From a bacterium (GTDB lineage Bacteria > Desulfobacterota > Binatia > HRBIN30 > CADEER01), in NCBI GenBank assembly GCA_019637795.1, contig JAHBUY010000003.1, forward strand, positions 257,409 to 321,408: a DNA stretch of 64,000 bases, given 5' to 3'. The position numbers and the translations under genes are program-made. This document shows, piece after piece, positions 5,995 through 63,712 of this stretch. The notes under the pieces were generated by a model. That model was not told the origin of the DNA. It worked only from the letters and a program-made list of their open reading frames with translations, and searched no databases. Each line of letters begins with the position of its first letter. Position 1 is the first letter of the stretch.

Positions 5995-6146
5995 CGGGCG
6001 ACTAGAGCAGCCGCCCGGCGACCGGGCAAGCCCGCCAGCACGGCGGCCCCACGGCGAGCGGGCGACGGCGCGATGCGCGCGCCAGCGTCGCGCTCCGGGC
6101 GCGGTTCGAAGCGGCGCCCGGCGGCGAATTGGTGTATTCCCGGGCC

Positions 6147-7583
6147 ATGACCGACCCGTACACCGAGCTCGCCATCGCCGGGGCGTGGCGCGCCGCCGCG
6201 GATGGCGCGCGTTTCGCCGTGCGCGAGCCGGCGACCGGCGCCGAGCTGGCCAGCGTCGCCGACGCGACCGTCGACGATGCGCTCGCCGCGGTCGCCGCGG
6301 CGCACGCCGCCGGTCCGGGCTGGGCGACGGCACCGCCGCGGCAGCGCAGCGACGTGCTGCGCCGCGCCTTCGAGCTCATGCTAACGCGCGCCGATCGGCT
6401 CGCCGAGCTGATCGTGCGCGAGAACGGCAAGCCGATCGCCGAAGCGCGCGGCGAGGTCGCCTACGCCGCCGAATTCTTCCGCTGGTTCTCGGAAGAGGCG
6501 GTGCGCCTCGACGGTCGATTCGCCACGGCGCCGGGCGGCGGCAACCGCATGCTCGTCCTGCGGCAGCCGATCGGCGTCGCGTTGCTGATCACGCCGTGGA
6601 ACTTCCCGGCCGCGATGGCGACGCGCAAGATCGGCCCGGCGCTCGCCGCCGGCTGCACGGTCGTCCTGAAGCCGGCGACCGAGACGCCGCTCACCGCGCT
6701 CGCCGTCGCCGCCATCCTCGCCGAGGCCGGAGCGCCGCCGGGCGTGGTCAACGTCGTGCCGACGACGCGCAACGCCGCGGTGGCCGCCGCCATGCTCGCC
6801 GACCCGCGGGTGCGCAAGCTGTCGTTCACCGGTTCGACGGAGGTCGGCCGGCTCCTGCTCGCCCAGGCGGCGCAGCGGGTGGTGAAGTGCTCGATGGAGC
6901 TCGGCGGCAACGCGCCGTTCATCGTCTTCGCCGACGCCGACCTCGACGCCGCGATCGCCGGCGCCATGATCGCCAAGATGCGCCACAACGGCGAGGCCTG
7001 CACGGCGGCGAACCGCTTCTACGTCGAACGCGCCGTCGCCGACGAATTCAGCGACCGGCTGGCGCGCGCCATGGGCGGGCTCGCGATGGGCAACGGCCTC
7101 GACCCGGCGGTGCGCGTCGGCCCGCTGGTCAACGCCGAAACGCGCGCCAAGGTGGCGCGCCTGGTCGACGCGGCGCGCGGCGCCGGGGCGCGCGTGCGCG
7201 TCGGCGGCACGGCGCCGAGCGGCCCGGGCTTCTTCTATCCGCCGACGGTGCTGGATCGGGTGGCGCCCGACTCGCCGATCCTCGCCGAGGAGATCTTCGG
7301 CCCGGTGGCGCCGGTGGTCGCCTTCGACGCCGAGGAGGAAGCGATCCGCCTCGCCAACGCCACCGAGTACGGACTGGTGTCGTACGTCTACACCCGCGAC
7401 CTCGGGCGCGCGCTGCGCGTCGCCGAGGCGCTCGAGGCGGGGATGGTGGCGCTCAACCGCGGCATCGTCTCCGACCCCGCGGCGCCCTTCGGCGGCATCA
7501 AGCAGAGCGGACTCGGGCGCGAGGGCGGCCCGGAAGGGATCCTCGAGTACACGGAGACGAAGTACGTCGCGGTGAGCTGGTAG
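6147..7583 (+). CDS. Succinate-semialdehyde-type aldehyde dehydrogenase
   Basis: 478 residues covering the whole aldehyde dehydrogenase fold. Visible motifs are LLITPWNFPAAM (cofactor site), VVLKPATETP, SFTGSTEVGR, catalytic Glu in MELGGNAPFIVF and catalytic Cys in HNGEACTAANR. The C-terminus (NRGIVSDPAAPFGGIKQSG, then EGILEYTETKYV) is the pattern of succinate-semialdehyde dehydrogenases (GabD), which oxidise the semialdehyde to succinate with NAD(P)+. ATG 6147 (MTDPYTEL) is preferred over an in-frame GTG at 6129. The gene stands alone, so the physiological substrate is unproven. Confidence 0.88.
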   Translation: MTDPYTELAIAGAWRAAADGARFAVREPATGAELASVADATVDDALAAVAAAHAAGPGWATAPPRQRSDVLRRAFELMLTRADRLAELIVRENGKPIAEARGEVAYAAEFFRWFSEEAVRLDGRFATAPGGGNRMLVLRQPIGVALLITPWNFPAAMATRKIGPALAAGCTVVLKPATETPLTALAVAAILAEAGAPPGVVNVVPTTRNAAVAAAMLADPRVRKLSFTGSTEVGRLLLAQAAQRVVKCSMELGGNAPFIVFADADLDAAIAGAMIAKMRHNGEACTAANRFYVERAVADEFSDRLARAMGGLAMGNGLDPAVRVGPLVNAETRAKVARLVDAARGAGARVRVGGTAPSGPGFFYPPTVLDRVAPDSPILAEEIFGPVAPVVAFDAEEEAIRLANATEYGLVSYVYTRDLGRALRVAEALEAGMVALNRGIVSDPAAPFGGIKQSGLGREGGPEGILEYTETKYVAVSW

Positions 7584-23759: not shown

Positions 23760-25364
23760 CTACCTCTGCGCCTGTTCGCGCAACAGGTACTTCTGGATCT
23801 TGCCGCTGCCGGTCATCGGGAAGGAGTCGACGAAGAACACCCGCCGCGGGCATTTGAAGCCGGCGATGGTGCCGCGGCAGAGGGCGATGACGTCCTCCTC
23901 GCTGAGTTGCGCGCCGGGCTCGCGGATGACGAATGCCACCGGAATCTCCGACAGGCGCGGGTCGGGGACGCCGACCACGGCGACGTGATTGATGCGCGGA
24001 TCGGCGAGGAGCAGGCTCTCGACCTCGGTGGGGTCGACGTTCTCGCCCCCCACCTTGAGCAGGTCCTTGTAGCGGCCGAGGAAGCGCATGCAGCCGTCCG
24101 CGCGCAGCAGGCCCGAGTCGCCGGTATGCAGCCAGCCGTCGGCGTCGATCGTCTGCGCCGTCTCCTGCGGTTTTTTGTAATAGCCCTGCATCACCTGGTA
24201 GCCGCGGACGCAGATCTCGCCCACCTGCCCGGCCGGCAGCGTCGCGCCGCTCGCCGGGTCGATGATCTTGATCTCGTAGCCGGGGAGCGGCCAGCCGCTC
24301 ATCGTCACCCGCGTCTCCTCGTCGGTATCGAGAAACGAGCCGGTGACGCCGACGCCGATCTCGGTCATGCCGTAGCCGGTCATGGTGCGCATCAGCGCCT
24401 GGGCGCGGCGGGCGATCGGCTCGCTCGACAGCATGCCGGCGGCGCAGACGCCGGTGCGCAGGCTGGAGGTGTCGCGCGACGGCCGCGACGGGTGTTCGAG
24501 CAGATCCTTGTAGTGGGTGTCGAAGCCGTTGATCATCGTCGCCCGCTGCTCCTCGATCAGGCGCAGCGCCTCGCCGGCGTCGAAGCTCGCCATCAGCACG
24601 TGGCGGGCGCCGGTGGCGGGCGACATCAGCAGCGCCTTGTACACCGCGAAGGCGTGGAACAGCGGCAGGTAGTCGAGGATGACGTCGGCGCAGGTGACGC
24701 CGAGGCGGTTGGCGTTGTCGAGGATGTTGCGGACGACGTTGTGCCCCTGCATCACGCCCTTGGGAAATCCCGTGGTGCCGGAGGTGTACATGATGTAGGC
24801 GGTGCCATCAGGATCGACGGCGGCGTGGCGCCGCGCCAGCTCGCCATCGCTCACCGCCGCGCCGGCGCGCAGCAGCGCGTCCCAGCCGGTCGTGCCGGCG
24901 ATCGCCTCGCCGAGCACGATGACCCGGCGCAGCGCCGGTGCGGCATCCACCGTCAGCGCGCCGGGGCGCTGGTCGCGCAGGCCGGGCAGCAGCTCCTCGA
25001 CCATGCCGAGGTAGTCGACGCCGTGCGCGCGGTCGGCGGTGATCAGCGTCGTCGCGTCGGATTGGGTGACCACGTAGGCCATGTCGCGGGTGCGGAAGCG
25101 GGTGTTGATCGGCACCAACACGGCGCCGATCCTGGCGATGGCGAAGAAGAGGAAGACGAACTCCGGCCGGTTGCCGAGCCACAGGCAGACGTGATCGCCG
25201 TGTTCGACGCCGGCCGCGATCAGGGCCTTCGCCGCGCGATCGACCTCGTCGCGCTGCGCGGCGAACGTCCAGCCCCGCCCCTCGAACCACAGCGCCTCGC
25301 GCTGTGGCCAGCGCTCGGCGGCGCGGTCGATCAGGTCCCCGAAACGCAGCTTCTCAATCCACAT
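23760..25364 (-). CDS. AMP-forming acyl-CoA synthetase/ligase
   Basis: 534 residues of the ANL superfamily. P-loop-like motif YIMYTSGTTGFPKGVM, adenine-binding MTGYGMTE, the WLHTGDSG hinge region with GRYKDLLKVGGENVDP, and the catalytic C-terminal Lys in PMTGSGKIQKYLL. It activates a carboxylic acid to an acyl-adenylate and then to acyl-CoA. Length and lack of extra domains suit medium- or long-chain fatty or aryl acids; the exact acid is open. It sits in a minus-strand run with thiolase-like genes, consistent with acyl-CoA catabolism. Confidence 0.92.
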   Translation of the reverse strand: MWIEKLRFGDLIDRAAERWPQREALWFEGRGWTFAAQRDEVDRAAKALIAAGVEHGDHVCLWLGNRPEFVFLFFAIARIGAVLVPINTRFRTRDMAYVVTQSDATTLITADRAHGVDYLGMVEELLPGLRDQRPGALTVDAAPALRRVIVLGEAIAGTTGWDALLRAGAAVSDGELARRHAAVDPDGTAYIMYTSGTTGFPKGVMQGHNVVRNILDNANRLGVTCADVILDYLPLFHAFAVYKALLMSPATGARHVLMASFDAGEALRLIEEQRATMINGFDTHYKDLLEHPSRPSRDTSSLRTGVCAAGMLSSEPIARRAQALMRTMTGYGMTEIGVGVTGSFLDTDEETRVTMSGWPLPGYEIKIIDPASGATLPAGQVGEICVRGYQVMQGYYKKPQETAQTIDADGWLHTGDSGLLRADGCMRFLGRYKDLLKVGGENVDPTEVESLLLADPRINHVAVVGVPDPRLSEIPVAFVIREPGAQLSEEDVIALCRGTIAGFKCPRRVFFVDSFPMTGSGKIQKYLLREQAQR

Positions 25365-25370
25365 CGATCA

Positions 25371-25418
25371 CCACGGAGGTCACGGCGGCGCGCTGAGGGC
25401 CTCGCTGCCCCTCCGTGG
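25371..25418. repeat. Inverted repeat CCACGGAGG ... CCTCCGTGG
   Basis: A 9-bp perfect inverted repeat (25371-25379 with 25410-25418) in the gap between the secernin-like and acyl-CoA synthetase genes. CACGGAGG-type palindromes resemble dispersed intergenic repeats; a CTCCGTGGTGA copy of one arm occurs near 19845. Confidence 0.45.
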
Positions 25419-25431
25419 CCGCCGCGGTCGT

Positions 25432-26766
25432 TCAGCTCGCCAACTCCCCGATCAGCCGCTCGAGGCGTTCGAGCGCCAGCGCGACGTTGGCGTCCATGAA
25501 GCGGGTCAGCAGGCGCGCCGCGCTGTCGACCTGTCCGGCCCGGCGCAGGCGCACCGCCTTGTGCTCCACCTCCGCCGCCTCGCCGTCGAGCATCCGCTCG
25601 AACTCGTCCCAGAAGGCGCGCGCGTGCGGGGCGCGGCGCGGGACGTCCTGCTCGACCAACGTCAGGAGATGCTTGAACCGCCACCACGGCGCGTCCGGGG
25701 TCGGCTCGGCGCCGCCGCGCGCCAGCGCCGCCGGCAGCTCGCCGTCGACGTAGTAGGGCAGGAAGACGCCGGCGCACGGCGAGCCGAGGCTGCCCCAGTA
25801 GCGCAGCAGGTCGTCGCGGTCTTCGGGCAGGCGGGCGATCATGCTGGCGGTGGTGGTGCCGACCGGATCGGCGTGCATGCAGACGCCGAAGTAGCGCTCG
25901 TCGTCCGGGGCGTCCGCCGCGCGGTGCGCGGTGGCGCCGTAGTGGTCGCGCAGCGCGGCGCGCAGCGCCGCCGGCGTCAGCCGGCCGCGGCCGGCGGCGA
26001 GCAGCTCGCAGGTGCGGCGATGACGGCCGTTCGAGACCACCGCGGGCGCGGTCGCGGTGTCGCGGTAGGCGGCGGCGAAGTCGAAGCGGCCGCCAGCGTC
26101 CTCCGGCCACCAGCCGTTGGCGATCGCGTGCTCGATGGTGTCGTCGGCGAGCCCGTCCCAGTCGGCGCCGATCGCGAGGTGGTTGCTGGCGCTGTCGACC
26201 TCGCGCGCCCGCCGCACCGCCCAGCGGCGGTCGGAGGTCTCCACCAGGTAGGCCTCGCGGCGATCGGCGACGAGGAACGAGTTGTGGTACGGCCAGTCCT
26301 TGTCGGCGTAGCCGGACCCGCCCTGCCCGTACGCCGCCGCCAGGTCGGTGATCACCTCCACCGCCCGTGCCGCGCTCGCCGCCCGCTCGAGGCCGAGGCG
26401 CACCAGGTCCATGCCGATCAGGCCCGGCGCGCCCAGGGGATCGCGGGTGAAGACGGTATGGTTGCCGATCGCCACCCCGTGCTCGTTCAGCCCGTGCTCG
26501 AACCCCCAGCACCAGTACGGCCGCGAGCCGATGAGCCGGGCGGTCGCCGCCACCTGCGGAATCTCGATGTAGGTGCAGCGCAGCCGCGCCCCGGGCGGGT
26601 GCCGGCGCGCCGGCCGCTGCAGCAGCGGCTGCGGCTCGGCGGCCGGCCGGTCGCTGTTCTTGGCGAACAGCACCGCGCCGTCCGCCGTGGCGGCGCCGAG
26701 GGCGACGAGCGAATCGCAGGCCACGCGCGGGGTCTCGACCATCGCCGCGATGCGTTGCATACGCAT
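25432..26766 (-). CDS. Secernin/C69-family Ntn-hydrolase-like protein
   Basis: 444 residues. The N-terminus has the C69/secernin signature TPRVACDSLVALGAATADGA with the presumptive nucleophile Cys18 followed by VLFAKNSDRP. Further conserved blocks are GFEHGLNEHGVAIGNHTVF and SASNHLAIGADWDG. Members are dipeptidases or related amide hydrolases; secernin biochemistry is poorly defined. An in-frame ATG at 26742 would place the Cys about ten residues from the start. Divergent from the enoyl-CoA hydratase gene. Confidence 0.8.
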   Translation of the reverse strand: MRMQRIAAMVETPRVACDSLVALGAATADGAVLFAKNSDRPAAEPQPLLQRPARRHPPGARLRCTYIEIPQVAATARLIGSRPYWCWGFEHGLNEHGVAIGNHTVFTRDPLGAPGLIGMDLVRLGLERAASAARAVEVITDLAAAYGQGGSGYADKDWPYHNSFLVADRREAYLVETSDRRWAVRRAREVDSASNHLAIGADWDGLADDTIEHAIANGWWPEDAGGRFDFAAAYRDTATAPAVVSNGRHRRTCELLAAGRGRLTPAALRAALRDHYGATAHRAADAPDDERYFGVCMHADPVGTTTASMIARLPEDRDDLLRYWGSLGSPCAGVFLPYYVDGELPAALARGGAEPTPDAPWWRFKHLLTLVEQDVPRRAPHARAFWDEFERMLDGEAAEVEHKAVRLRRAGQVDSAARLLTRFMDANVALALERLERLIGELAS

Positions 26767-27694: not shown

Positions 27695-28840
27695 GTGGCT
27701 GATCGTGTCGCCTCGCCGCGTGGCGCAACGCGGTGCCTGACGCAGAGCCTGCCCGGGTGGCAGCCCCGCTCGCCGCACGATCCCTGCATCGTCGGGGTGC
27801 TCCCCGGCGAGGGCATCGGCCCCGAGGTCGTCGAGGCCGCGCTGCTCGTCCTCGATGCGGTGACCCAGGCGAGGCGGCTGCCGATCACCATCCTGCGCGC
27901 CGCGGCGCCGGCCGGCGGCCGCCAACGGAGCTGGCTCAGGGGCGAGGGCTTCGACTTCTGCGAGCGCGTGTTCGCCGGCGCCGGTGCGCTGTTCTGCGGC
28001 CCGCTGGGCGGCCGCGCCGTCTACGAGCTGCGCGCCCGTTTCGATCTCTACTGCAAGCTGGTGCCGCTGCGTCCGACGGCGGTGCTGGCCGACGCGGCGA
28101 TCGTCCGCCCCGAACGGCTGACGGACGTCGACGTGTTGATCGTGCGCGAGAACCTCGGCGGCGTGTACGCGGGCGAGTTCGGCCGTCGCGATGGCGGGCG
28201 CGTCGCCTACCAGACCTTCGCCTACCACAGCGACCAGATCGAACGGATCGTGCAGGTCGCGGCGCGGCTCGCGGTGGCGCGCCGCGGGCGGTTGACGGTC
28301 GCCGGCAAGGCGGGCGGCGTCCCCGAGGTGAGCGCGCTGTGGCGCGAGACGGCGGAGGCGGTGGCGTCCGAGCACGGCCTGGCGGCCGAGTTCCTGGAGA
28401 TCGACAACGCCAGCTACCAGCTCATCGCCGATCCGCGACGCTTCGACGTCATCCTGGCGCCGAACTTCCTCGGCGACATCCTCGCCGACTCGGCGACCGT
28501 GCTGCTCGGCTCGCGCGGCATGTCGTACTCCGCCAACTACGGGCCGGACGGCCGCGCCGCGTACCAGACAGGCCATGGCGCGGCCCACGATCTGGCATCC
28601 CTCGACCGCGCCAACCCGGTGGCCCAGATCCGGTCCGCCGCCCTGATGCTGCACGAGACCTTCGGCCTGGAAGACGCCGCGTGCTGCATCACGGACGCCG
28701 TCGAGACCGTGCTCGCCGCCGGCTGGCGTACCCCGGACATCGCCGGCCCGGCGAGCCGCGTCGTCGGCACGCGCGAGCTCGCCGAGCGCATCGCGCGCGC
28801 AGCCGAGGATCTGGCGAGCGGCACCAGGAAGATCGCGTGA
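27695..28840 (+). CDS. Isocitrate/isopropylmalate dehydrogenase-family protein
   Basis: 381 residues. After an unusual 30-residue leader, GVLPGEGIGPEVVEAALLVL is the N-terminal signature of beta-decarboxylating dehydrogenases. Conserved blocks follow: LRARFDLYCKLVPLRP (substrate arginines), VRENLGGVYAGEFG, catalytic Lys in VAGKAGGVPEVSALW, metal-binding Asp in NFLGDILADSATVL, and TGHGAAHDLAS with ANPVAQIRSAALML. It should oxidise a 2-hydroxy-3-carboxy acid with NAD(P)+ and decarboxylate it. The substrate loop differs from LeuB and Icd, so tartrate- or homoisocitrate-like acids are possible. Overlaps the next gene by 4 bp. Confidence 0.83.
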   Translation: MADRVASPRGATRCLTQSLPGWQPRSPHDPCIVGVLPGEGIGPEVVEAALLVLDAVTQARRLPITILRAAAPAGGRQRSWLRGEGFDFCERVFAGAGALFCGPLGGRAVYELRARFDLYCKLVPLRPTAVLADAAIVRPERLTDVDVLIVRENLGGVYAGEFGRRDGGRVAYQTFAYHSDQIERIVQVAARLAVARRGRLTVAGKAGGVPEVSALWRETAEAVASEHGLAAEFLEIDNASYQLIADPRRFDVILAPNFLGDILADSATVLLGSRGMSYSANYGPDGRAAYQTGHGAAHDLASLDRANPVAQIRSAALMLHETFGLEDAACCITDAVETVLAAGWRTPDIAGPASRVVGTRELAERIARAAEDLASGTRKIA

Positions 28841-30864
28841 GCGCGCCGGGCCCGCGCACCGCCCTCCTGCTGGTCGACCTGCAGCACGACTTCCTCGAAC
28901 GCCCCGGGCTGGTCCCATCCGCCGACGCGCTGTGCGCGCGCGCCGCCGCCCTGCTCGCCGCGGCGCGGCGGCAATCGATCCCGGTCGCGCACGCGCACAC
29001 GCTGATCGGCGCCGACGGCGCCGACGCCATGCCGCACTGGCGGCGGCTGGGCCGTCTCGCCTGCGTCGAGGGAACACGCGGCGCCCTGGCGCCGCCGTCG
29101 CTCGCGCCGGCCGACGGCGAGCTGGTACTGCGCAAGCGCTTCTTCAGCGCCTTCGCCGATCCGCGGCTCGAGCCCTGGCTGCGCCAGCACCGGGTCCAGC
29201 GCCTGCTCGTCGCCGGCGTCTATCTGCACGGCTGCGTGCGCTCGACGGCGCTCGACGCTTACGAGCGCGGCTACGCGGTGGCGGTCGCCGACGATGCGGT
29301 CGGCAGCACCGAACCGCTGCACGCGGAGTTGACCCGCGCCTGGCTCGGCGAACGCGCCGCCACCTTCGCGCGCACCGACGCCCTGCTCGCCGAGCTCGCG
29401 CCCGCCGCCGCGCCGGACGCCGCGGCGACGCGTCTGCCGGCCGCGGTGATCGACGCCCGGCCGCGCCCCGCCGGCCCGGCGCACGCCAGCGTCCGCCACC
29501 GCAATCCCTGCCGCACCGCCGAGGTCCTGGCCGAGGTGCCGCTGGCCGGAGCGCCGGAGATCGCGGCCGCCGCCGCGTCGTGCGCCGCGGCGCAGGCGGA
29601 CTGGGCGCACGTCGCCCCCGCCGTCCGCGCCGATCTCCTCGAGCGCTGGGCGGACGACCTCGCGGCGCAGCGCGAGCGGCTCACAGCGCTCGTCGTGCGC
29701 GAGGTCGGCAAGCCGCGGCGCGCCGCCGCGGAGGAGGTGGAACGCGCGGTGGCGCACGCGCGCGTCGCCGCCGAGGTGACGCGCGCCACCGCGGATGCGT
29801 CCCGCCTCGCCGCCGGCGTCGCGGCGCGCCAGCGGCCGCTCGGCGTGGTCGGCGTCATCACGCCGTGGAACAACCCGCTGGCGATTCCGGTCGGCAAGCT
29901 CGCGCCGGCCCTCGGGCTCGGCAACGCCGTCGTGCTCAAGCCCGCGCCCCAGGCGTCGGCGACCGCCCTGGCCCTGCTCGAGAGCCTGCACCGGGTCGGC
30001 CTGGCGGCCGGGCTGGTGAACGTCGTGCTCGGCAACGGCGCGACGGCGCGCGCCCTGTGCGGCGAGTCGCGCATCGCCGCGGTCTCGGTCACCGGCTCGA
30101 TCGCCACCGGCCGCGTCGTCGCCGGCCTCTGCGCCCTCGGCATGAAGCCGCTGCAGGCGGAGCTGGGCGGCAACAACGCGGCGATCGTCCTCGCCGATGC
30201 CGACCTCGAACGCGCCGCCCACGATCTGGCGCGCGCCGCCTTCGCCTTCGCCGGACAGCGCTGCACCGCGATCCGCCGCATCGTCGTCGAGGCATCGGTC
30301 TCGACGCGCTTCACCGAGCTGCTGCGCGACGCCGTGGCGGGGCTGGTGAACGGCGAGCCGGACGACCCGGCGACCGAGGTCGGACCGCTCATCTCGGTCG
30401 AGAAGCGGGCGGCGGTGATGGCGGCGATCGAGCAGGCGATGGCGCGCGGCGCGCGGCGGCTGATCGGCGGCGACGTGCCGCCCGCCCTGGCGCACGGCGC
30501 CTGGCTGGCGCCGGCGCTGCTCGCGGGCGTCGACCCGCGCGATCGCATCGCCCAGGAGGAGACCTTCGCCCCGCTGGCGCTCATCCTGCCCGCCGCCGAT
30601 CTCGAAGCCGCCTTGGCGATCGCCAACGGGGTGCCGCACGGCCTGGTGATGAGCGTGCACACGCGCGACCCGCGCCGGCGGGCGCGCGTCCGCGACGCCG
30701 CCGAGGCCGGCATCCTGCAGTTGGGCGGCGGCCCGCTCGCCGTGCATCCGCGGGCGCCGTTCTCGGGCTGGAAGGCGTCCGGCATCGGCCCGCCCGAGCA
30801 CGGCATCTGGGACGCGGCCTTCTACTCGCGCGCGCAGGCGGTGTACGGGGACGATCCGTGCTGA
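28837..30864 (+). CDS. Isochorismatase-family hydrolase fused to aldehyde dehydrogenase
   Basis: 675 residues starting at GTG 28837 inside the previous stop. Residues 1-190 are a cysteine-hydrolase domain with the Asp-Lys-Cys triad intact: D14 in LLLVDLQHDF, K100 in VLRKRFFSAF, C133 in GVYLHGCVRSTALDAYE. Residues about 215-675 are an aldehyde dehydrogenase with GVITPWNNPLAIPVGK, VVLKPAPQAS, E442 in QAELGGNNAAIVL and C476 in FAGQRCTAIRR. Both active sites look functional. A natural reading is hydrolysis of an amide or ester followed by aldehyde oxidation in one chain, but the order and substrate are unknown. The next gene overlaps by 7 bp. Confidence 0.88.
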   Translation: MSAPGPRTALLLVDLQHDFLERPGLVPSADALCARAAALLAAARRQSIPVAHAHTLIGADGADAMPHWRRLGRLACVEGTRGALAPPSLAPADGELVLRKRFFSAFADPRLEPWLRQHRVQRLLVAGVYLHGCVRSTALDAYERGYAVAVADDAVGSTEPLHAELTRAWLGERAATFARTDALLAELAPAAAPDAAATRLPAAVIDARPRPAGPAHASVRHRNPCRTAEVLAEVPLAGAPEIAAAAASCAAAQADWAHVAPAVRADLLERWADDLAAQRERLTALVVREVGKPRRAAAEEVERAVAHARVAAEVTRATADASRLAAGVAARQRPLGVVGVITPWNNPLAIPVGKLAPALGLGNAVVLKPAPQASATALALLESLHRVGLAAGLVNVVLGNGATARALCGESRIAAVSVTGSIATGRVVAGLCALGMKPLQAELGGNNAAIVLADADLERAAHDLARAAFAFAGQRCTAIRRIVVEASVSTRFTELLRDAVAGLVNGEPDDPATEVGPLISVEKRAAVMAAIEQAMARGARRLIGGDVPPALAHGAWLAPALLAGVDPRDRIAQEETFAPLALILPAADLEAALAIANGVPHGLVMSVHTRDPRRRARVRDAAEAGILQLGGGPLAVHPRAPFSGWKASGIGPPEHGIWDAAFYSRAQAVYGDDPC

Positions 30865-32105
30865 CCCGCGAGCAGCAGGAGACCCTCACCCGCGTCGGCG
30901 CCGGGACGCCGGCCGGCGAGCTGCTGCGGCGCTACTGGCATCCGGTGGCGGCGAGCGTCGAGCTGCGCGCCGGAACCGCCCTGCCGGTGCGCCTCCTCGG
31001 CGAGGATCTGGCGCTCTTCCGCGCCGGCGACGGCGCGCTCGGCCTGCTCGACGCGCGCTGTCCGCACCGCGGCGCCTCGCTCGCCCACGGCGTCGTCGAC
31101 GACTGTTCGCTGCGCTGCGCCTACCACGGCTGGCGCTTCGACGCCGCCGGCGCCTGCCTCGAGGTGCCGACGCTGCGCGGCGACGCGGCGGGCCTGCGCG
31201 AGCGCGCCCGCACCCGCGCCTACCCGACGCAGGAGCTGGGCGGGCTGATCTTCGCCTACCTCGGCCCGCACCCCGCGCCGCTGCTGCCGCGCTACGACCT
31301 CTTCGTGTGGGAGGGCGTGCTGCGCGACATCGGACGCGCGCTGCTGCCGTGCAACTGGCTGCAGATCATGGAGAACAGCGTCGACCCGACGCACCTCGAG
31401 TGGTTGCACGGGCATCACCTCGGCGCCGCCCGCGCCGCCGCCGGGCTGCCGGCGCCGAGCCGCTACGGCCGGCGCCACGAGGAGATCGGCTTCGACCTGT
31501 TCGCGCACGGCATCATCAAGCGGCGCCGGCTCGCCGGCGGCAGCCGCGACGACGACGACTGGCGCGTCGGTCATCCGCTGGTCTTCCCCTGCATGGTGCG
31601 GGTCGGCGCGCAGCGCCAGCATCGCTTCCAGATCCGCGTGCCGGTGGACGACACCCACACGCTGCACTTCTGGTACTCCTGCTACCGGCCGCGCGATGGC
31701 GCGACGGCGCCGCCGCAGGAGGCGGTGCCGGTCTACGAGGTCCCGTTCCGCGACCAGCGCGGCGCCTTCCTGCTCGACTTCGTCGACGGCGGCGACATCA
31801 TGACCTGGCTGACCCAGGGCGCGATCGCCGACCGCACGCGCGAGATGCTGGTCGACACCGACAGCGGCATCGTCCTCCTCCGCCGCCTGCTGTTCGAGCA
31901 GATCGAGCGCGTGCGCGCCGGCGAGGATCCGCTCGGCACGGTGCGCGCGCCGGCGGAGAACCACATCATCGAGCTGCCGCAGGAGCGCGACAAGTACGGC
32001 GCCGGCGACACCTTCCTCGCCGAATCGATCGCCATGAGCCACGTCCGCTACAGCCCGCTGCGGCGCGAGATCCTGGCGCTGCTCGGCCTCGCGGCGGAGG
32101 GCTGA
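30858..32105 (+). CDS. Rieske non-heme iron oxygenase, alpha subunit type
   Basis: 415 residues from GTG 30858. The Rieske 2Fe-2S site is CPHRGASLAHG (CxH) and CSLRCAYHGWRFD (CxxH). The mononuclear iron ligands are in NSVDPTHLEWLHGHHLG, with a later acidic ligand expected in the C-terminal half. The single-subunit layout matches phthalate-type (VanA-like) demethylases and hydroxylases, which insert oxygen or remove O/N-methyl groups using electrons from a separate reductase. No reductase gene is seen nearby. It overlaps the fusion gene by 7 bp, so the enzymes are made together. Confidence 0.9.
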   Translation: MLTREQQETLTRVGAGTPAGELLRRYWHPVAASVELRAGTALPVRLLGEDLALFRAGDGALGLLDARCPHRGASLAHGVVDDCSLRCAYHGWRFDAAGACLEVPTLRGDAAGLRERARTRAYPTQELGGLIFAYLGPHPAPLLPRYDLFVWEGVLRDIGRALLPCNWLQIMENSVDPTHLEWLHGHHLGAARAAAGLPAPSRYGRRHEEIGFDLFAHGIIKRRRLAGGSRDDDDWRVGHPLVFPCMVRVGAQRQHRFQIRVPVDDTHTLHFWYSCYRPRDGATAPPQEAVPVYEVPFRDQRGAFLLDFVDGGDIMTWLTQGAIADRTREMLVDTDSGIVLLRRLLFEQIERVRAGEDPLGTVRAPAENHIIELPQERDKYGAGDTFLAESIAMSHVRYSPLRREILALLGLAAEG

Positions 32106-32109
32106 CGGT

Positions 32110-33249
32110 CTGCGCATCCTCTGCTACGCGCAGCACCTGTCGGGCGTCGGGCATTTCGTCCGCATGCACGCCCTCGCCTGCGGCCTGAGCCGGGAGCACG
32201 AGGTCGAGCTGGTCGACGGCGGCCGCCCGGTGCCGCGCGCCCCCGATCCGCCCGCGCTGCGGCTGCTGTCGCTGCCACGGCTGGCGCGGGCGGGAGGCCG
32301 ACTGGTCGCGCTCGACGGCGGCGCGCCGGTCGCCGCCATGCTGGCGGAGCGCGCCGACATCCTGGCGCGCGCCATCGCGGCGCGGCCGCCCGACGCGGTC
32401 CTCATCGACCACTTTCCGTTCAGCAAGTGGGAGCTGGCGGCGGAGATCGCCGCCGCGATCGCCGCGGCGCGGCGCGGCAATCCGGCGGCGCGGATCTTCT
32501 GCTCGCTGCGCGACGTCGCGCCGCGGACGCGCCACGAGCCGGCCGACGCCGCGGCCTACGCGGCGCGCGTGCGCGACGAGCTGCGCGCCGGCTTCGACGG
32601 CGTCCTGGTGCACGCCGATCCCGCCTTCACCCGCCTGGAGGAGCACTTCGCGCCCGCCGCCGCGCTGCCGGTGCGCGTCGCGTACACCGGCTTCGTCACC
32701 CCGCCCCCGCCGCCCCTCGCGGCGCCGCCCTCGCCGCCGGCGGCGGTGCTGAGCTGCGGCGGCGGCGCCGGCGCCCTGCCCTTCCTGCTCGCGGCCAGCG
32801 CGGCGTTCGCGCGCCTCGCCGCCGACGGCACGACCGCGGCGATGCCGCTGCTCGTCTTCGCCGGCGGCTTCGCCACGCCCGCCGATCTCGCCCGACTCGC
32901 GGCCGTGGAGCGCGAGCCGATCCGCCTGCGCGGCTTCGGACCGGAATTCGCCGCCGCCCTCGCCGGCAGCCCCCTGTCGATCAGCCGCGCCGGCTACAAC
33001 ACCTGCGCCGCGCTGCTGCGCGCCCGCACGCGCGCCGTGCTGGTGCCGGATCCGGCCATGTCCGACCAGACCTACCGGGCGCGGCGCTTCGCCCAGCTCG
33101 GGCTCGCCCAGGTGGTCGAAGGCGACCCGCCCGCGGTGGACGCATTGGCCGCGGCGATGCGCGCCGCGCTCGCCGCGCCGCCGCCGCGGCACGCCTTCGA
33201 TCTCGACGGCGTCGCCCACACCGAGACGGCGATCGCCGCTTGGCGCTGA
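32110..33249 (+). CDS. MurG/COG4671-like glycosyltransferase, probable CTG start
   Basis: The obvious ATG at 32164 would cut off a conserved N-terminus. Reading back in frame from it gives LRILCYAQHLSGVGHFVRMH, the typical GT-B opening with a Gly-rich loop and His (SGVGH). The only start-like codon is CTG at 32110, 9 nt after GGAGG (32096-32100) and 5 nt after the Rieske stop. The product (379 residues) contains CSLRDVAPRTRHEP, LSCGGGAGALPFLLA and the C-terminal SRAGYNTCAALLRARTRAVL, a donor-nucleotide site resembling MurG. It transfers a sugar from a nucleotide donor; acceptor unknown. The downstream flank holds a 7-bp stem at 33344-33360. Confidence 0.75.
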   Translation: MRILCYAQHLSGVGHFVRMHALACGLSREHEVELVDGGRPVPRAPDPPALRLLSLPRLARAGGRLVALDGGAPVAAMLAERADILARAIAARPPDAVLIDHFPFSKWELAAEIAAAIAAARRGNPAARIFCSLRDVAPRTRHEPADAAAYAARVRDELRAGFDGVLVHADPAFTRLEEHFAPAAALPVRVAYTGFVTPPPPPLAAPPSPPAAVLSCGGGAGALPFLLAASAAFARLAADGTTAAMPLLVFAGGFATPADLARLAAVEREPIRLRGFGPEFAAALAGSPLSISRAGYNTCAALLRARTRAVLVPDPAMSDQTYRARRFAQLGLAQVVEGDPPAVDALAAAMRAALAAPPPRHAFDLDGVAHTETAIAAWR

Positions 33250-33382: not shown

Positions 33383-34324
33383 TCACGAAAGCGGACCGGA
33401 GGGATGCGGCGGGCTCGCCCCCGCGGACGCCACGGAAGGATCGGCCGCCGGTCCTCGTCCCAGGTGCGGGAGATAGCGCGACAGGATCGGATCGAAGACC
33501 TCGTTGCGATCGTGGTAGGCGAAGTAGTCGACGCCGTCGTAGCGCCCCTTCCCCTCCATCTTGCGCGCCTTGCGTTCGAACTCTTGGCGCGATTTGACGG
33601 GGTAGTGGTTGATCCGCAGGTGATCGACCGACACGTGCCGGCTGGTGATGTCCGTCGCCGCCCACGGATCGACGTAGCGCAGCGCCGGGCCGAGCAGGCG
33701 GTAGAAGCGCCGCAGCCGCTTCTTGAACCGGGCGCGCGCCACCAGATCGACGGACGCACCGGTCTCGTCGACCGCCAGGCCGCCGCCGGCGTAGCGGAAG
33801 CAGTGCGGATTCACCGGCTCCAGCGTCCGCGCCGGGTCGACGATCGACTTGACGCGGCGGTTGCGGATCCACTGCGTCGGAGCGCGCCGGTCGAAGCGGG
33901 CGATGACCGGCTCGTCGCTGGCGTGCTGATGGCCGCTGGAACCGTAGACCTGCCAGCGGACGACGACGCCCGGCGCCCGCTCGAAGCGCCGCAGCACCGG
34001 CGGCAGCGTCGGCTCCTGGGGCGCGAAGAGGAACTCGTCGATGTCGATGCAGGTCAGCCAGCGGGTGCGGCCGCGCACCCGGGTCAGGCAGTCGGCATAG
34101 GCCAGGCGCGCGGCGGGCAGGCGGAAGGGCATCGGCCACGGCTGCACGCTGACGCAGCCGGCGGCGATGTAGGGAGCGAGCACGGCCAGCGACGCGTCGT
34201 CACTGCCGTTGTCGTAGAGGAAGAAGCGCTCGACGCCGACCAGGCGATGGAAGTCGATCCACTCCGCCAGGTAGGGCGCCTCGTTGCGGAAGATGGCGCA
34301 GGCGGCGAGATAGCATTCCGGCAT
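33383..34324 (-). CDS. Glycosyltransferase family 2/92-like
   Basis: 313 residues. CAIFRNEAPYLAEWIDFHRLVG followed by FLYDNGSDDASL is the GT92/DUF23-type entry, and WLTCIDIDEFLF holds the DxD motif that binds the metal and nucleotide sugar. IRNRRVKSIVDPARTLEPVN and DHLRINHYPVKSRQEFERK are also family-like. No membrane helix. It lies 7 bp after the next glycosyltransferase gene on the same strand, so they are probably one operon with the radical SAM gene. Confidence 0.82.
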   Translation of the reverse strand: MPECYLAACAIFRNEAPYLAEWIDFHRLVGVERFFLYDNGSDDASLAVLAPYIAAGCVSVQPWPMPFRLPAARLAYADCLTRVRGRTRWLTCIDIDEFLFAPQEPTLPPVLRRFERAPGVVVRWQVYGSSGHQHASDEPVIARFDRRAPTQWIRNRRVKSIVDPARTLEPVNPHCFRYAGGGLAVDETGASVDLVARARFKKRLRRFYRLLGPALRYVDPWAATDITSRHVSVDHLRINHYPVKSRQEFERKARKMEGKGRYDGVDYFAYHDRNEVFDPILSRYLPHLGRGPAADPSVASAGASPPHPSGPLS

Positions 34325-34331
34325 CGCCGGC

Positions 34332-35396
34332 TCAGACCCGGAAGCGGCGCCCCATCGCCTCGGGGCTCAGGTGCGTCAGCACGCCGCCCAGCGCCGAGAG
34401 GCCGTAGTAGCCGCCGCAGATCGCCAGCATGACCGGCAGCTCCCACGCCCGGAGACCGACGCGCCGCCCGTGGCGCGCCGCGCGGTGGACGACCCGCCCC
34501 AGGCGCCGCAGCGCCTCCGCCTGGCTGTGCGCGAGGCCGGCGAGGGTTCGCGCGTCATCGTCGGCGCGCGCCAGGTAGGTATCGCGCCCCTCGGCGAGGG
34601 CGCGGATGACGAAGTGGCGGAGATTCGCCGGCGGAGGATGCGCGACGGAGGCGCGGGGATTCTGCCAGACGCAGGTGCCGTGCTGCGCCAACGTCCGCCT
34701 CATGATGGTTCCCGCGCCGCGGCTGCGCCGCCCCAACGAGGCGAACCCCGCCGCCGGAAAGGCGGCGGCGCGGAAGGCGATCGAGTTGAAGTAGAACGTC
34801 CGCACCGTGCGCAGCGCGTCCGCGTCGTCGCGCGGCGGATAACGCCAGCCGAGCGCGAAGGCGCGGGCGAAGACGCCGGTCGGCGCGATGTAGGTCTGGG
34901 CGCAGGCGACGTCGACCTCGCGGCGCGCGAAGGCGCCGACCAGGTGCGGCAGCCAGTCGTCGTCGGGCCACACGTCGCTGTCCAGGAACAGCAGCAGGTC
35001 GCCGCCGGCGCGGCGCGCGCCCAGGTTCTTGAGCGGGTAGTACTCCAGCCCCTCGGCGACGTGGACCGCGACGTCGACGCCGTCGCCGAGACGGGCGCGG
35101 ATCTCCGCCTCCAGCGCGGCGCCGAGCACCTCGCCCGAGACGACCAGCACCTCGGCGCGCGGCGCGAGCCCGGCGAGGAAGCCGGCGGCGTCCGCCGGCA
35201 GCGAGGCCGGGAAGCGTCGATCGACGATCTGCCGCCATTGGACGCGCACGACGTCGAGCAGGCGCCAGGCGCGCGGCACGCCGTTCAGGCGCGTGTTCGC
35301 CCACTCGATGATGATGGAGAGCCGCGGCCGGCGGTCCGCGTCCCTGGCGGTCAGGCCCTGCTCCGCCGCCGACCGATCGGGGAGCGCGGCGGCCAT
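34332..35396 (-). CDS. Glycosyltransferase family 2 with a C-terminal hydrophobic helix
   Basis: 354 residues. LSIIIEWANTRLNG opens the GT-A fold, AEVLVVSGEVLG and LEYYPLKNLGARRAGGDLL follow, and LLFLDSDVWPDDDWL carries the DxD. GTIMRRTLAQHGTCVWQNP is the acceptor-side region. A hydrophobic stretch near the end (LPVMLAICGGYYGLSALGG) may anchor the protein to the membrane. ATG 35396 overlaps the stop of the radical SAM gene (ATGA). Confidence 0.82.
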   Translation of the reverse strand: MAAALPDRSAAEQGLTARDADRRPRLSIIIEWANTRLNGVPRAWRLLDVVRVQWRQIVDRRFPASLPADAAGFLAGLAPRAEVLVVSGEVLGAALEAEIRARLGDGVDVAVHVAEGLEYYPLKNLGARRAGGDLLLFLDSDVWPDDDWLPHLVGAFARREVDVACAQTYIAPTGVFARAFALGWRYPPRDDADALRTVRTFYFNSIAFRAAAFPAAGFASLGRRSRGAGTIMRRTLAQHGTCVWQNPRASVAHPPPANLRHFVIRALAEGRDTYLARADDDARTLAGLAHSQAEALRRLGRVVHRAARHGRRVGLRAWELPVMLAICGGYYGLSALGGVLTHLSPEAMGRRFRV

Positions 35397-36820
35397 CAGC
35401 TCGCCGCTGCGCTCGGCTCGATCGGCGGTCGCACGAGCGCGGACTGCCGCGCCCGCAGCCAGTCCTGCGCCCGCGGCGGATAGAAGCAGAGCGCCACCAG
35501 ATCGTAGACCAACGTGCCGAGCTCGCTCATCGTCAGGTGCTCGCCGTCGTCGACGATCAGATCCGCGTCCCTGAGCCGAGCCAGCACCGGGGCGAAATCG
35601 TCCTCGATCGGCTGTCCGAAGGCGCGCGCGTAGAGGGCGCGGCTGAGCGGCTTGCCGTCGCCGAGGCTGCGGCCGATGAACTGCGTCTTGCGGTCCTCGT
35701 CCGCCAGCGGCAGGGCCCCCTCGACCGGGCTGCGGCCGCTCTCGACGCGCTCGAGGTATGTCTCGAGCCGCGAGGCGTTGCGATACGCCGTGCCGCCGAG
35801 ATGCGAGCGGGCGCTCATGCCGACGCCGAGTTGGTACCCCCAACCGTTGGGCTGGAAGTGCTCCAGGCGCTCGTGCCGCGCGCCGATCGAGTCGAGGCGC
35901 TTGAAGGTGTGCATGCGCGTCTGCGCGAAGCCGAGCTCGCGAGCCTTGCGCTTCACCGCGCCGCGCCAGCGGATCAGCCGCGCCAGGGCGAGGCGTTCCG
36001 TCTCGTGCAGGGCCTTGGCGACCGGCGTCCGGTCGTTGAGATGGAGACTGTAGATCGTCAGCGAGTGCACGCCGGTGGCCGCCACCGTCTCCATGTCGGC
36101 GAGGAAGCTCGCCTCGGTCTGCCGGGGCAGGCCGTAGATGAGGTCGGTGTTGGTGATCAGCCCGGCGTCGACCAGGCGTTCGCAGGCGGCGAGGGCGTCG
36201 GCCGCGCCGTGGCGGCGGTGGACGCCCTCGAGCACGGCGTCGTCGAGGCTCTGGATCCCCATGCTGACGCGCCCGATGCCGTGCCGGCGCAGGACGTCGA
36301 TGTGTGCCGCGGTGAGGGTCTCGGGCGAGGCCTCGACGGTGTGGACGCCATCGCCGAAGCGCGTCGTGCGCGCGAAGATCGCGCCCAGCAGCTCGTCGAG
36401 CAACGGCGGCGGCAGCGCCGTCGGCGTGCCGCCGCCGATGAACAGTTGCGCCAGCGGCGTCCCCGGCTCGATCCACTCCAGCTCGCGCTGCAGGGCGCGC
36501 ACGTAGCGCGCCATGGTGCCGTCCGCGACGCCAGTGCGCACCGCGAAGCAGCAGAAGGTGCAGTGGTAGCGGCAGAACGGAACGTGGGCGTAGAGGCGCA
36601 AGCGGTCGCCGTCGAGCGGCGGCCGCTCCGCCATCGGCTCCGGCCTGAACGCCGGCGCCGCGCCGGGATACTCGTGCGGGACGCAGTAGGCAGCGCCGGG
36701 AACGCCGGCCAGCGCCCGCATCACCCGTTCGAGCGTCTCGGCGCTCGGCTCCTCGACGGCAGGCATCCCCGGCAACCCGTCGGCCTCATATCCGCTGTCA
36801 CCAGGCCGAGCAAGGAGCAC
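35396..36820 (-). CDS. HemN/HemW-like radical SAM protein
   Basis: 474 residues. The SAM-binding cluster motif is CRYHCTFC (C-x3-C-x2-C) followed by a further Cys, with LYAHVPF before it, FIGGGTPTALPP after it and VSMGIQSLDDAVLEGVHRRH, all as in coproporphyrinogen-oxidase-like enzymes. HemN-type enzymes decarboxylate coproporphyrinogen III; HemW-type chaperones move heme. The C-terminal HemN domain (FQPNGWGYQLGVGMSARSHL) is present. Its coupling to glycosyltransferases by an ATGA overlap argues against a housekeeping heme role. Confidence 0.85.
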   Translation of the reverse strand: MLLARPGDSGYEADGLPGMPAVEEPSAETLERVMRALAGVPGAAYCVPHEYPGAAPAFRPEPMAERPPLDGDRLRLYAHVPFCRYHCTFCCFAVRTGVADGTMARYVRALQRELEWIEPGTPLAQLFIGGGTPTALPPPLLDELLGAIFARTTRFGDGVHTVEASPETLTAAHIDVLRRHGIGRVSMGIQSLDDAVLEGVHRRHGAADALAACERLVDAGLITNTDLIYGLPRQTEASFLADMETVAATGVHSLTIYSLHLNDRTPVAKALHETERLALARLIRWRGAVKRKARELGFAQTRMHTFKRLDSIGARHERLEHFQPNGWGYQLGVGMSARSHLGGTAYRNASRLETYLERVESGRSPVEGALPLADEDRKTQFIGRSLGDGKPLSRALYARAFGQPIEDDFAPVLARLRDADLIVDDGEHLTMSELGTLVYDLVALCFYPPRAQDWLRARQSALVRPPIEPSAAAS

Positions 36821-36884: not shown

Positions 36885-37862
36885 ATGAACGGCGCGGCAC
36901 GGGGAAACGCCCCGCAACGCCTGTGGGCGATCAGCAGCTACTTCAATCCCCTGGGCTGGACCCGCCGCCTCGCCAACTATCGTCACTTCCGCCGCCACCT
37001 GCCGCTGCCGCTGCTGACCGTCGAGCTGGCGCGCGACCCGGCGCGATTCCAGCTCGGACCGGGCGACGCCGACCGCCTGCTCCAGCGCACCGGCGAGGAT
37101 CGGCTGTGGCAGAAAGAGCGCCTGCTCAACGTGGCGCTGCGGGCGCTGCCGGCGGAGTGCGACGCCGTCGTCTGGCTCGACTGCGACGTCGTGCTCGACG
37201 CCCCCGACTGGCCGCGCCGGGTCGCCGAGGCGCTGACCCGCCACACGCTCATCCAGCCCTTCGCCCGCTTCCGCGAAGCGCCGCCAGACGCCGCGGCGTG
37301 GGACGGCGGGGCGAGCGCGGGCTGGCCTGGCGGCGAGGCGCTCGGACGACGGCTCGCCGCCGGCGCGCCGGTCGACGAGCTGTTCCGGCGCGGCGTCGGC
37401 CATCGCCTGGCGCGCGGCCACGCGGTGGGATTCGCCTGGGCGGCGCGCCGCGCCCTGCTCGACCGGCACGGACTGTACGACGGCTGCATCCTCGGCAGCG
37501 GCGACAAGGCGATGGCGATCGCCGCCCTCGGCCGCTTCGACCTCCTCGACCGGCTGGCGATGAATGCGCGCCAGACGATGCACTTCCGCGCCTGGGCCGA
37601 TCCGTTCTTCGCCGACGTCGGCGGCGACATCGGCTGCGCCGACGCCACCCTCGTCCATCTCTGGCACGGCGACCTGAAGGCGCGCCGCTACCGCCGCCGC
37701 CACGAGGAGTTCAGTCGCTTCGGCTTCGATCCCTTCGCCGACATCGCCGTCGACCCGCAGGGCGCCTGGCGCTGGACGACGACCAACGCGGAGATGCGCG
37801 CCTACGTCGCCGACTACTTCGCCGCCCGCAACGAGGACGGCGAGCCGGCCGACGCCGACTGA
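36885..37862 (+). CDS. Glycosyltransferase-like protein
   Basis: 325 residues. AISSYFNPLGWTRRLANYRH opens the protein, LWQKERLLNVALRALP and VVWLDCDVVLDAPDW give a DxD-like core, and ARGHAVGFAWAARRALLDRH and GLYDGCILGSGDKAMAIAAL resemble the acceptor half of GT-A enzymes. HLWHGDLKARRYRRRHEEF holds a conserved His. The family resembles proteins annotated as glycosyltransferase-like or DUF, so the precise donor is unknown. Divergent from the radical SAM gene and probably part of the same glycan locus. Confidence 0.7.
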   Translation: MNGAARGNAPQRLWAISSYFNPLGWTRRLANYRHFRRHLPLPLLTVELARDPARFQLGPGDADRLLQRTGEDRLWQKERLLNVALRALPAECDAVVWLDCDVVLDAPDWPRRVAEALTRHTLIQPFARFREAPPDAAAWDGGASAGWPGGEALGRRLAAGAPVDELFRRGVGHRLARGHAVGFAWAARRALLDRHGLYDGCILGSGDKAMAIAALGRFDLLDRLAMNARQTMHFRAWADPFFADVGGDIGCADATLVHLWHGDLKARRYRRRHEEFSRFGFDPFADIAVDPQGAWRWTTTNAEMRAYVADYFAARNEDGEPADAD

Positions 37863-62376: not shown

Positions 62377-63086
62377 CACCCCGCGCACCGGGCCAGCGCC
62401 CGCTCGAGCGCGGCCAGGATGACCCCGGCGGAGTCGGCAGGAGTGGTGACGCCGCGGTTCCACGGGATGCCGAGCGCGGTCCAGGCGCGCGCCGCGGCCG
62501 GCAGGTGGATCGGGTCGGAGCGGCTGCCGAAGTCCGTCCCCTGGGTGGGACCGATCTCGACGTGCAGCACGCGCACGCCGCGCTCCGCGTATTCGCGGTC
62601 GAGCGCGATGCTGGCGGCGTGCAGCGCCGCCTTCGACGCCGCGTAGAGCGTCAGATACGGCCACCCGGCGGCGCTGGCCGAGCCGACGTTGAGGACGACG
62701 CCGCGCCCGGCGTCGAGCATCGCCGGCAGCGCGGCGCGGGTCACCAGCAGCGCGCCGATCAGATTGGTGTCGAGGGTCGCCTGCCAGACCGCGGGGTCCG
62801 ACTCGAGGAACGGTTCGACCTGACCGATCCCGGCATTGTTGATCACGGCATCGACGCGGCCGGCGGCGGCGATCAGCCGCTGCGCGGCGGCGGCACTGGC
62901 GACGTCGGCCACCACCGGGATGAGCGCCGAACCGAGCTCCTCGGCGAGCGCCGCGAGACGATCGGCGGAGCGCGCTGCCGCGACCACGCGCGCGCCACGG
63001 GCGACGAGCGCAGTCGCCAGCGCCCGGCCGATGCCGCTCGAGGCGCCGGTGACTACGACGACCGCGCCCGCCAGTGGATGGCTCAT
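62376..63086 (-). CDS. Short-chain dehydrogenase/reductase
   Basis: 236 residues. VVVTGASSGIGRALATALVA is the Rossmann TGxxxGIG motif, DAVINNAGIGQVEPFLES carries the NNAG motif, and LYAASKAALHAASIAL contains the catalytic Tyr and Lys; Ser is in NVGSASAAG. It reduces or oxidises a ketone or alcohol with NAD(P). Chained by ATGA overlaps to both neighbours. Confidence 0.92.
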   Translation of the reverse strand: MSHPLAGAVVVVTGASSGIGRALATALVARGARVVAAARSADRLAALAEELGSALIPVVADVASAAAAQRLIAAAGRVDAVINNAGIGQVEPFLESDPAVWQATLDTNLIGALLVTRAALPAMLDAGRGVVLNVGSASAAGWPYLTLYAASKAALHAASIALDREYAERGVRVLHVEIGPTQGTDFGSRSDPIHLPAAARAWTALGIPWNRGVTTPADSAGVILAALERALARCAG

Positions 63087-63712
63087 ACGGACGCCGCCTG
63101 CAGCGCGGCGAGCACGGCGGTGGACGAGGTCACCGTCGACAGCAGCGGCAGGATGTTGGTCACCGAGAAATCGTGCCAGGCATCGGGAAAGCCAGCGCAG
63201 CAGTCCTCGATGACGAACATCTCGAAGCCGCGGTTCACCGAGGCGCGCACCAACCCCTCGACCGCGAGGTTGGTCGACACGCCGCAGACCAGCAGGGCGT
63301 CGCGGCCGAGCATGCGCATCACCGGGTAGAGCTGCGTGCCGTAGGAGCCGTCGATGCCGATGGAGCGGGTGAAGACGAAATCGCGCTCGTCGGGCGTGAC
63401 CGCGGCGTGCGTCTGCGCCCCCCAGGTGCCCTCGATGAGGGTCGGCGTCGCGCCGGTGCGGCGATGCAGCAGGGTGCGCGGGCGCGGGAAGTCCGGCTTG
63501 CGCGCGTAGTTGACGTAGCCGACGGGGACCGCGGCGGCGCGCGCTGCCGCGGCCAGCGCCTGCGCCTTGCCGAGCACGCCGCGCTTCTGCACCTGGGCGG
63601 CGAGGATGCCGCGGAAGCCGGGGGCGCCGACGTTCGATTCGTGGACGATGTCGTTCTGCAGCTCGACCAGCAGCAGCGCGGCGCGACGCACGGGCAGTTC
63701 GAGCTCGCTCAT
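63083..63712 (-). CDS. Isochorismatase-family protein with altered active site
   Basis: 209 residues of the cysteine-hydrolase fold. The expected Asp-Lys-Cys triad is changed: E17 replaces Asp in LLLVELQNDIVHE, the Lys position reads FTRSIG, and GVSTNLAVEG has A150 where the nucleophilic Cys (as in ATNVCVE) belongs. Such a protein is probably catalytically silent or has new chemistry. First gene of the SDR-YdcF-DUF4911 operon. Confidence 0.82.
   Translation of the reverse strand: MSELELPVRRAALLLVELQNDIVHESNVGAPGFRGILAAQVQKRGVLGKAQALAAAARAAAVPVGYVNYARKPDFPRPRTLLHRRTGATPTLIEGTWGAQTHAAVTPDERDFVFTRSIGIDGSYGTQLYPVMRMLGRDALLVCGVSTNLAVEGLVRASVNRGFEMFVIEDCCAGFPDAWHDFSVTNILPLLSTVTSSTAVLAALQAASV

Follow-up and report, generated by a model that had tools for sequence, protein, structure and literature searches.

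The proteins studied here have their closest described relatives in separate enzyme families. Cys-type isochorismatase-like hydrolases such as NicF maleamate amidase, biuret hydrolase, N-carbamoylsarcosine amidase and RutB are amide hydrolases with an Asp-Lys-Cys triad, whereas isochorismatases of the EntB/PhzD type lack the cysteine. The semialdehyde dehydrogenases HpcC, PnpE, aminomuconate semialdehyde dehydrogenase and 2,5-dioxovalerate dehydrogenase share a fold with active-site Cys and Glu; the remaining relatives belong to the LeuB/isocitrate dehydrogenase family (PF00180) and to the phthalate 4,5-dioxygenase-type Rieske oxygenases. In the window, i.e. the whole analysed stretch of 64,000 nucleotides, such enzymes are encoded side by side on the plus strand in the order IDH, FUS, Rieske oxygenase and GT28-type glycosyltransferase (Table 1). 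This unit, which probably represents a transferable, biosynthetic cassette inside a larger cluster, is real and conserved and apparently undescribed; the result listings of a literature search contained no description of the fusion or the cassette. The earlier note knew of no standard pathway with this gene set, and we found none in the literature; among the hits listed, none of the four proteins reached an NCBIfam equivalog cut-off.

Table 1. Genes of the cassette and of the surrounding cluster (positions in the window).
Feature	Position	Strand	Remarks
IDH-like beta-decarboxylating dehydrogenase (P0001)	27695..28840	+	GTG start; PF00180, 234.9 bits
FUS (P0002), isochorismatase-like + aldehyde dehydrogenase	28837..30864	+	GTG start; PF00857, PF00171
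Rieske oxygenase (P0003), phthalate-dioxygenase-like	30858..32105	+	GTG start; PF00355, PF19301
GT28/MurG-C-type glycosyltransferase (P0004)	32110..33249	+	probable CTG start; PF04101
GT92-type glycosyltransferase	33383..34324	-	PF01697, 87.9 bits; convergent with cassette
GT2 glycosyltransferase	34332..35396	-	PF00535; start overlaps HemN-like stop by 1 base
HemN-like radical SAM protein	35396..36820	-	PF04055
Probable GT-A glycosyltransferase	36885..37862	+	no Pfam model; 40% to L031:15291-16217

The tight coupling of the four genes described in the earlier note is borne out by their overlaps and by the recurrence of the set in distant bacteria. IDH and FUS overlap by 4 bp and FUS and the Rieske gene by 7 bp, exactly as it had stated; its third value, a gap of 4 nt before the GT28-type gene, presupposes a CTG start at 32110. 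The earliest ATG, GTG or TTG codon of this gene is an ATG at 32164, and translation from about 32110 is likely because homologues start with identical residues. With 75-77% GC, the cassette is near the window in composition, so that a transfer, if any, either lies further back in time or involved a donor with a similar genome.

FUS comprises 675 amino acids in one frame and matches the Pfam models Isochorismatase (120.9 bits) and Aldedh (411.3 bits) above their cut-offs. A hydrolase domain (aa 8-162) is connected by a linker (about 190-214) to an aldehyde dehydrogenase (ALDH) domain (aa 219-669); the AlphaFold model has a pLDDT of 77, with values below 50 in the linker. The hydrolase triad D14, K100 and C133 and the ALDH residues E442 and C476, which the earlier note had read as intact, are all present and invariant in seven of seven aligned fusions. 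The triad, common to the Cys-type isochorismatases, whose solved members were matched, places the hydrolase in this superfamily and predicts an amide-hydrolase type unlike EntB/PhzD. FUS differs from the other members in being fused to an ALDH and in its own invariant residues H52, M-P-H-W (65-68) and R135. The ALDH part belongs to PF00171 by its score, E442 and C476, and shares fold and active-site residues with the semialdehyde dehydrogenases named above, from which it differs in its fusion, its cassette-specific clade and its low NCBIfam score: no equivalog cut-off for a named semialdehyde dehydrogenase was reached among the best 25 of 46 families (298.7 at best vs 750 required). Its best fold matches are carboxylated semialdehyde dehydrogenases, including the muconate-semialdehyde type, ALDH folds being generally alike. 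FUS is not an assembly artefact, because its reading frame is uninterrupted and the same fusion recurs in five relatives with both domains intact in a single frame; one further fusion (L069) is truncated by a contig end within the ALDH domain. A stand-alone aldehyde dehydrogenase (6129-7583, plus strand; 39% to the ALDH domain of FUS) and, judged by sequence, a stand-alone isochorismatase-like protein (63083-63712, minus strand) are also encoded in the window, both distant from the cassette.

The IDH exceeds the Iso_dh gathering cut-off of 27 bits by far and matches solved LeuB structures with E-values down to 1.6e-63. It shares with the LeuB/isocitrate dehydrogenase family the fold and the residues Y158, K205, D237, D261 and D265, which we take to be catalytic and which are invariant in the alignment of the seven cassette IDHs. 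Assignments as LeuB, isocitrate, tartrate or homoisocitrate dehydrogenase were rejected, as the scores lie well under the curated cut-offs (222.6 vs 353.2 bits for the 3-isopropylmalate dehydrogenase model TIGR00169). Two of the three LeuB substrate arginines, presumably R94, R104 and R132 in Thermus numbering, are kept in the cassette IDHs (R113 and R151), whereas the R104 position is occupied by V, T or N (n=7); in all seven proteins the neighbouring Asn is replaced by Lys and Arg107 is an additional invariant residue. These differences from the LeuB family, which extend to a separate clade (seven cassette IDHs vs four LeuB-type rows, support 100/100), make it likely that the cassette IDH uses a substrate other than the classical one; the multicarboxylate suggested in the earlier note is one candidate.

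The fusion is rare. Scanning 84,980 species genomes with the fusion yielded 20 relatives, four of them with a full-length match: a Planctomycetales MAG (L031, 49% identity), a Gammaproteobacteria MAG (L032, 48%), a Deltaproteobacteria MAG (L034, 46%) and Smaragdicoccus niigatensis (L033, 42%). Two more fusions (L068 in G960, L069 in G852) were found in the order of the L031 genome, where three of 170 genomes carry one, and the total thus amounts to seven including the window, the other six coming from Gammaproteobacteria, Planctomycetes, Deltaproteobacteria and Actinobacteria. It was detected exclusively in the query genome in searches of its own class (1/148), its own phylum (1/395, absent from the other 394), the order of Smaragdicoccus (1/249) and two further genome sets (1/17 and 1/241). 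These sets partly overlap, and the large searches scored the best few candidates per genome at thresholds of 1e-80 to 1e-130, so that divergent copies may escape. A match in G546, from the order of Smaragdicoccus, covers the ALDH part only and was excluded; none of 57 relatives besides the own genome matched beyond the ALDH part among the matches listed, and the plasmids searched carried no fusion.

The neighborhood search proposed in the earlier note revealed an IDH of the same type adjoining the fusion in all seven loci, compared with none of 29 ordinary ALDH loci (tblastn, about 1.5 kb on either side) and none of the 16 non-fusion loci of the genome scan. The genes are not scattered among relatives, as that note had considered: the fusion is missing from the 147 other genomes of the class, and the set stands together in distant bacteria. 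Five loci have the order IDH-FUS, L033 has FUS-IDH, and in L032 the two genes diverge; a 4-bp overlap of the pair occurs in the window, L031, L034 and, in reversed order, L033. Adjacency across phyla together with a 4-bp overlap despite the swapped order argues strongly for a single pathway.

The remaining genes are less constant. A Rieske gene accompanies the fusion in four of the seven loci, directly after it in the window and L031, at a contig end in L032 and two genes on in L068; a cassette-type Rieske was found neither in the whole genome of L033 (best match 59.9 bits) nor in that of L034 (none), G852 having been left out of this search. The complete four-gene set was found again in a Gammaproteobacteria MAG. 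In G528 the Rieske gene is distributed over contigs C163 (model positions 3-46) and C5 (83-410), which we infer to adjoin, and is directly followed by GT28 with a 4-bp overlap. Among the seven fusion genomes searched, GT28 is present in G000, G528 and G960, always inside the cassette, and absent from four. L068 exhibits the single-strand order IDH-FUS-HemN-like-Rieske-GT28-GT2-NRPS. The NRPS domains are A-PCP-TE in L033 and A-PCP-C-A-PCP-TE in L068/L074, thereby suggesting that an acid is activated; read by hand against the Stachelhaus code, the first adenylation domain of L033 and L068 presumably lacks the amino-group-binding Asp, and the second module of L068 presumably resembles valine codes. 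The L034 pair lies among sulfotransferase and GT2 genes and a gene that we take to be flippase-like, and a sulfotransferase follows GT28 in L070. No NRPS is located near the window, and the best own-genome matches to the L033 NRPS are AMP-ligases with at most 35% identity.

The Rieske oxygenase resembles the phthalate 4,5-dioxygenase type in its similarity to 7fjl (phmmer, 2.2e-49) and its LigXa_C domain (55.7 bits; Rieske domain 73.7 bits, both above cut-offs), and it contains the Rieske motif and D176/H179/H184. The closest catabolic Rieskes outside the cassette (49-53% identity) occur in phthalate-type contexts, with class II aldolase, MocA, ferredoxin and UbiD in Peribacillus and, by our own reading, a dihydroxyphthalate-decarboxylase-like gene in Caballeronia. 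These contexts, as well as the muconate-semialdehyde dehydrogenases among the ALDH fold matches, fit a catabolic operon of the kind suggested in the earlier note. In such an operon, ring opening or demethylation of an aromatic or N-heterocycle by the Rieske enzyme would be combined with removal of an amide by the hydrolase, and ALDH and IDH would feed central metabolism. However, the four cassette Rieskes form a clade of their own (100/98) apart from the catabolic ones, on which placement we rejected P0003 as a phthalate-type catabolic enzyme, and no reductase or decarboxylase partner is found in the cassette. Moreover, G529 and G530 carry IDH-FUS without a Rieske gene and with NRPS or glycosyltransferase/sulfotransferase neighbors, and neither a ring-cleavage gene nor an obvious transporter was seen in 27.7-37.9 kb. 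We therefore regard catabolism as unlikely. Own-class Rieske matches occur in 20 other genomes (up to 497 bits); the five of them taken into the tree fall in other clades. Three stretches around plasmid relatives of the Rieske gene showed no second cassette gene adjoining. Within the class, family f5 shows a marked expansion of the Rieske oxygenases, with nine to twelve matches in each of five genomes (G029, G049, G132, G134, G135).

The cassette sits within a larger cluster of about 27.7-37.9 kb on both strands, whose extent is based on homologues of three further genes at the cassettes of relatives. Two of them, the GT2 and HemN-like genes, are located on the opposite strand beyond the segment of the earlier note. 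GT2 shows 48% identity to the GT2 inside the L068 cassette, and the HemN-like gene 56% to the L068 gene that separates FUS from Rieske and 29% to a gene of L034; the HemN-like protein scores 201 bits against the STM4012 radical SAM family, for which 380 are required. The homologue of 36885-37862 adjoins the L031 cassette, and this gene, the probable right edge of the cluster, encodes a probable GT-A glycosyltransferase; its best fold matches are mostly glycosyltransferases, which is weak evidence given the low confidence of the model. Homologues with 34-36% identity, annotated as hypothetical, are present on plasmids of Cupriavidus (L090) and Burkholderia contaminans (L091) in quite different neighborhoods. 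P0004 matches Glyco_tran_28_C with 33.7 bits (cut-off 22) and has homologues in L070 and L068; a second, shorter own-genome match to the cassette glycosyltransferase covers 112 positions (L095, G000:C2:734662-735003). The GT92-type gene, without homologue at 1e-10 across six relative loci, is assigned to the cluster by position only. No linkage to the fusion in relatives was found for the upstream enoyl-CoA hydratase or for an AMP-dependent ligase and the Peptidase_C69 protein adjoining it (23760-26766, minus strand); the only matches, weak ones, were between AMP domains and the NRPS genes of the relatives. Readings of P0015 as adenylating, of P0016 as Asn-synthase-like (both without Pfam or useful PDB support) and of L031:4420-5517 as an ATP-grasp protein (no Pfam match) were discarded as motif readings alone.

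Four glycosyltransferase-type genes within 32.1-37.9 kb, together with the sulfotransferase, GT2 and presumed flippase-like genes around the L034 pair and the sulfotransferase in L070, could also reflect decoration of a cell-surface glycan, with the IDH-FUS acid joined to an exopolysaccharide or lipid-linked sugar. We consider this improbable, as no Wzx/Wzy-type gene was identified near the window and the thioesterase-bearing NRPS of L033 and L068 speaks for a small molecule that is released. A chance neighborhood of unrelated housekeeping enzymes, each family being common alone (11 other ALDH matches in the own genome), is hardly credible, since it is already contradicted by the relatives, the clades and the linkage, with IDH adjacency in 7/7 vs 0/45 control loci across phyla and despite order changes.

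The ALDH domains of the seven fusions likewise form one clade vs 12 ALDHs, in which FUS of the window groups with L032 (98/96; one outgroup row, L007, has only 280 aa). The cassette-only clades of IDH, ALDH and Rieske in the trees, together with the lack of the fusion in the other class genomes searched, are indicative of horizontal spread, and the linked recurrence with NRPS and glycosyltransferase neighbors suggests that the cassette is transferable and probably biosynthetic. Based on the neighboring genes we favor the biosynthetic direction, and we give roughly even chances that the four genes represent the left arm of a probably biosynthetic cluster that has spread horizontally and whose IDH-FUS core makes an unusual carboxylic acid. 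Against it stand the lack of an NRPS by the window and of an identified carboxylate-activating step within it, the absence of Rieske from two and of GT28 from four of the seven fusion genomes, and the catabolic appearance of the nearest outside Rieskes.

For this biosynthetic cluster we propose, from the enzyme families present, the order oxidative decarboxylation, C-N hydrolysis and acid formation; step order, substrates, product and direction are all inferred. The IDH would oxidize a 2-hydroxy acid with release of CO2. The Cys-hydrolase domain of FUS would cleave a C-N bond of the amide, ureido or enamide type, as RutB does in ureidoacrylate, and expose an aldehyde, which the ALDH domain would convert to the acid without letting it escape. 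Oxygenation may fall to the Rieske enzyme, carbon modification probably to the radical SAM enzyme and sugar attachment to the glycosyltransferases, and in relatives an NRPS adenylation domain may load the acid.

More tentatively, and with the odds somewhat against it, IDH-FUS may be an undescribed two-protein, three-reaction module for a new acid building block that moves between phyla and serves different assembly lines, namely NRPS in Smaragdicoccus and the planctomycete-order genome, and glycosyltransferases in the window and the Gammaproteobacteria. The cassette provides a sequence handle on an unknown metabolite family, and the coupled chemistry of the fused hydrolase-ALDH is directly testable. 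If the module reading is true, natural-product gene clusters would gain a new class.
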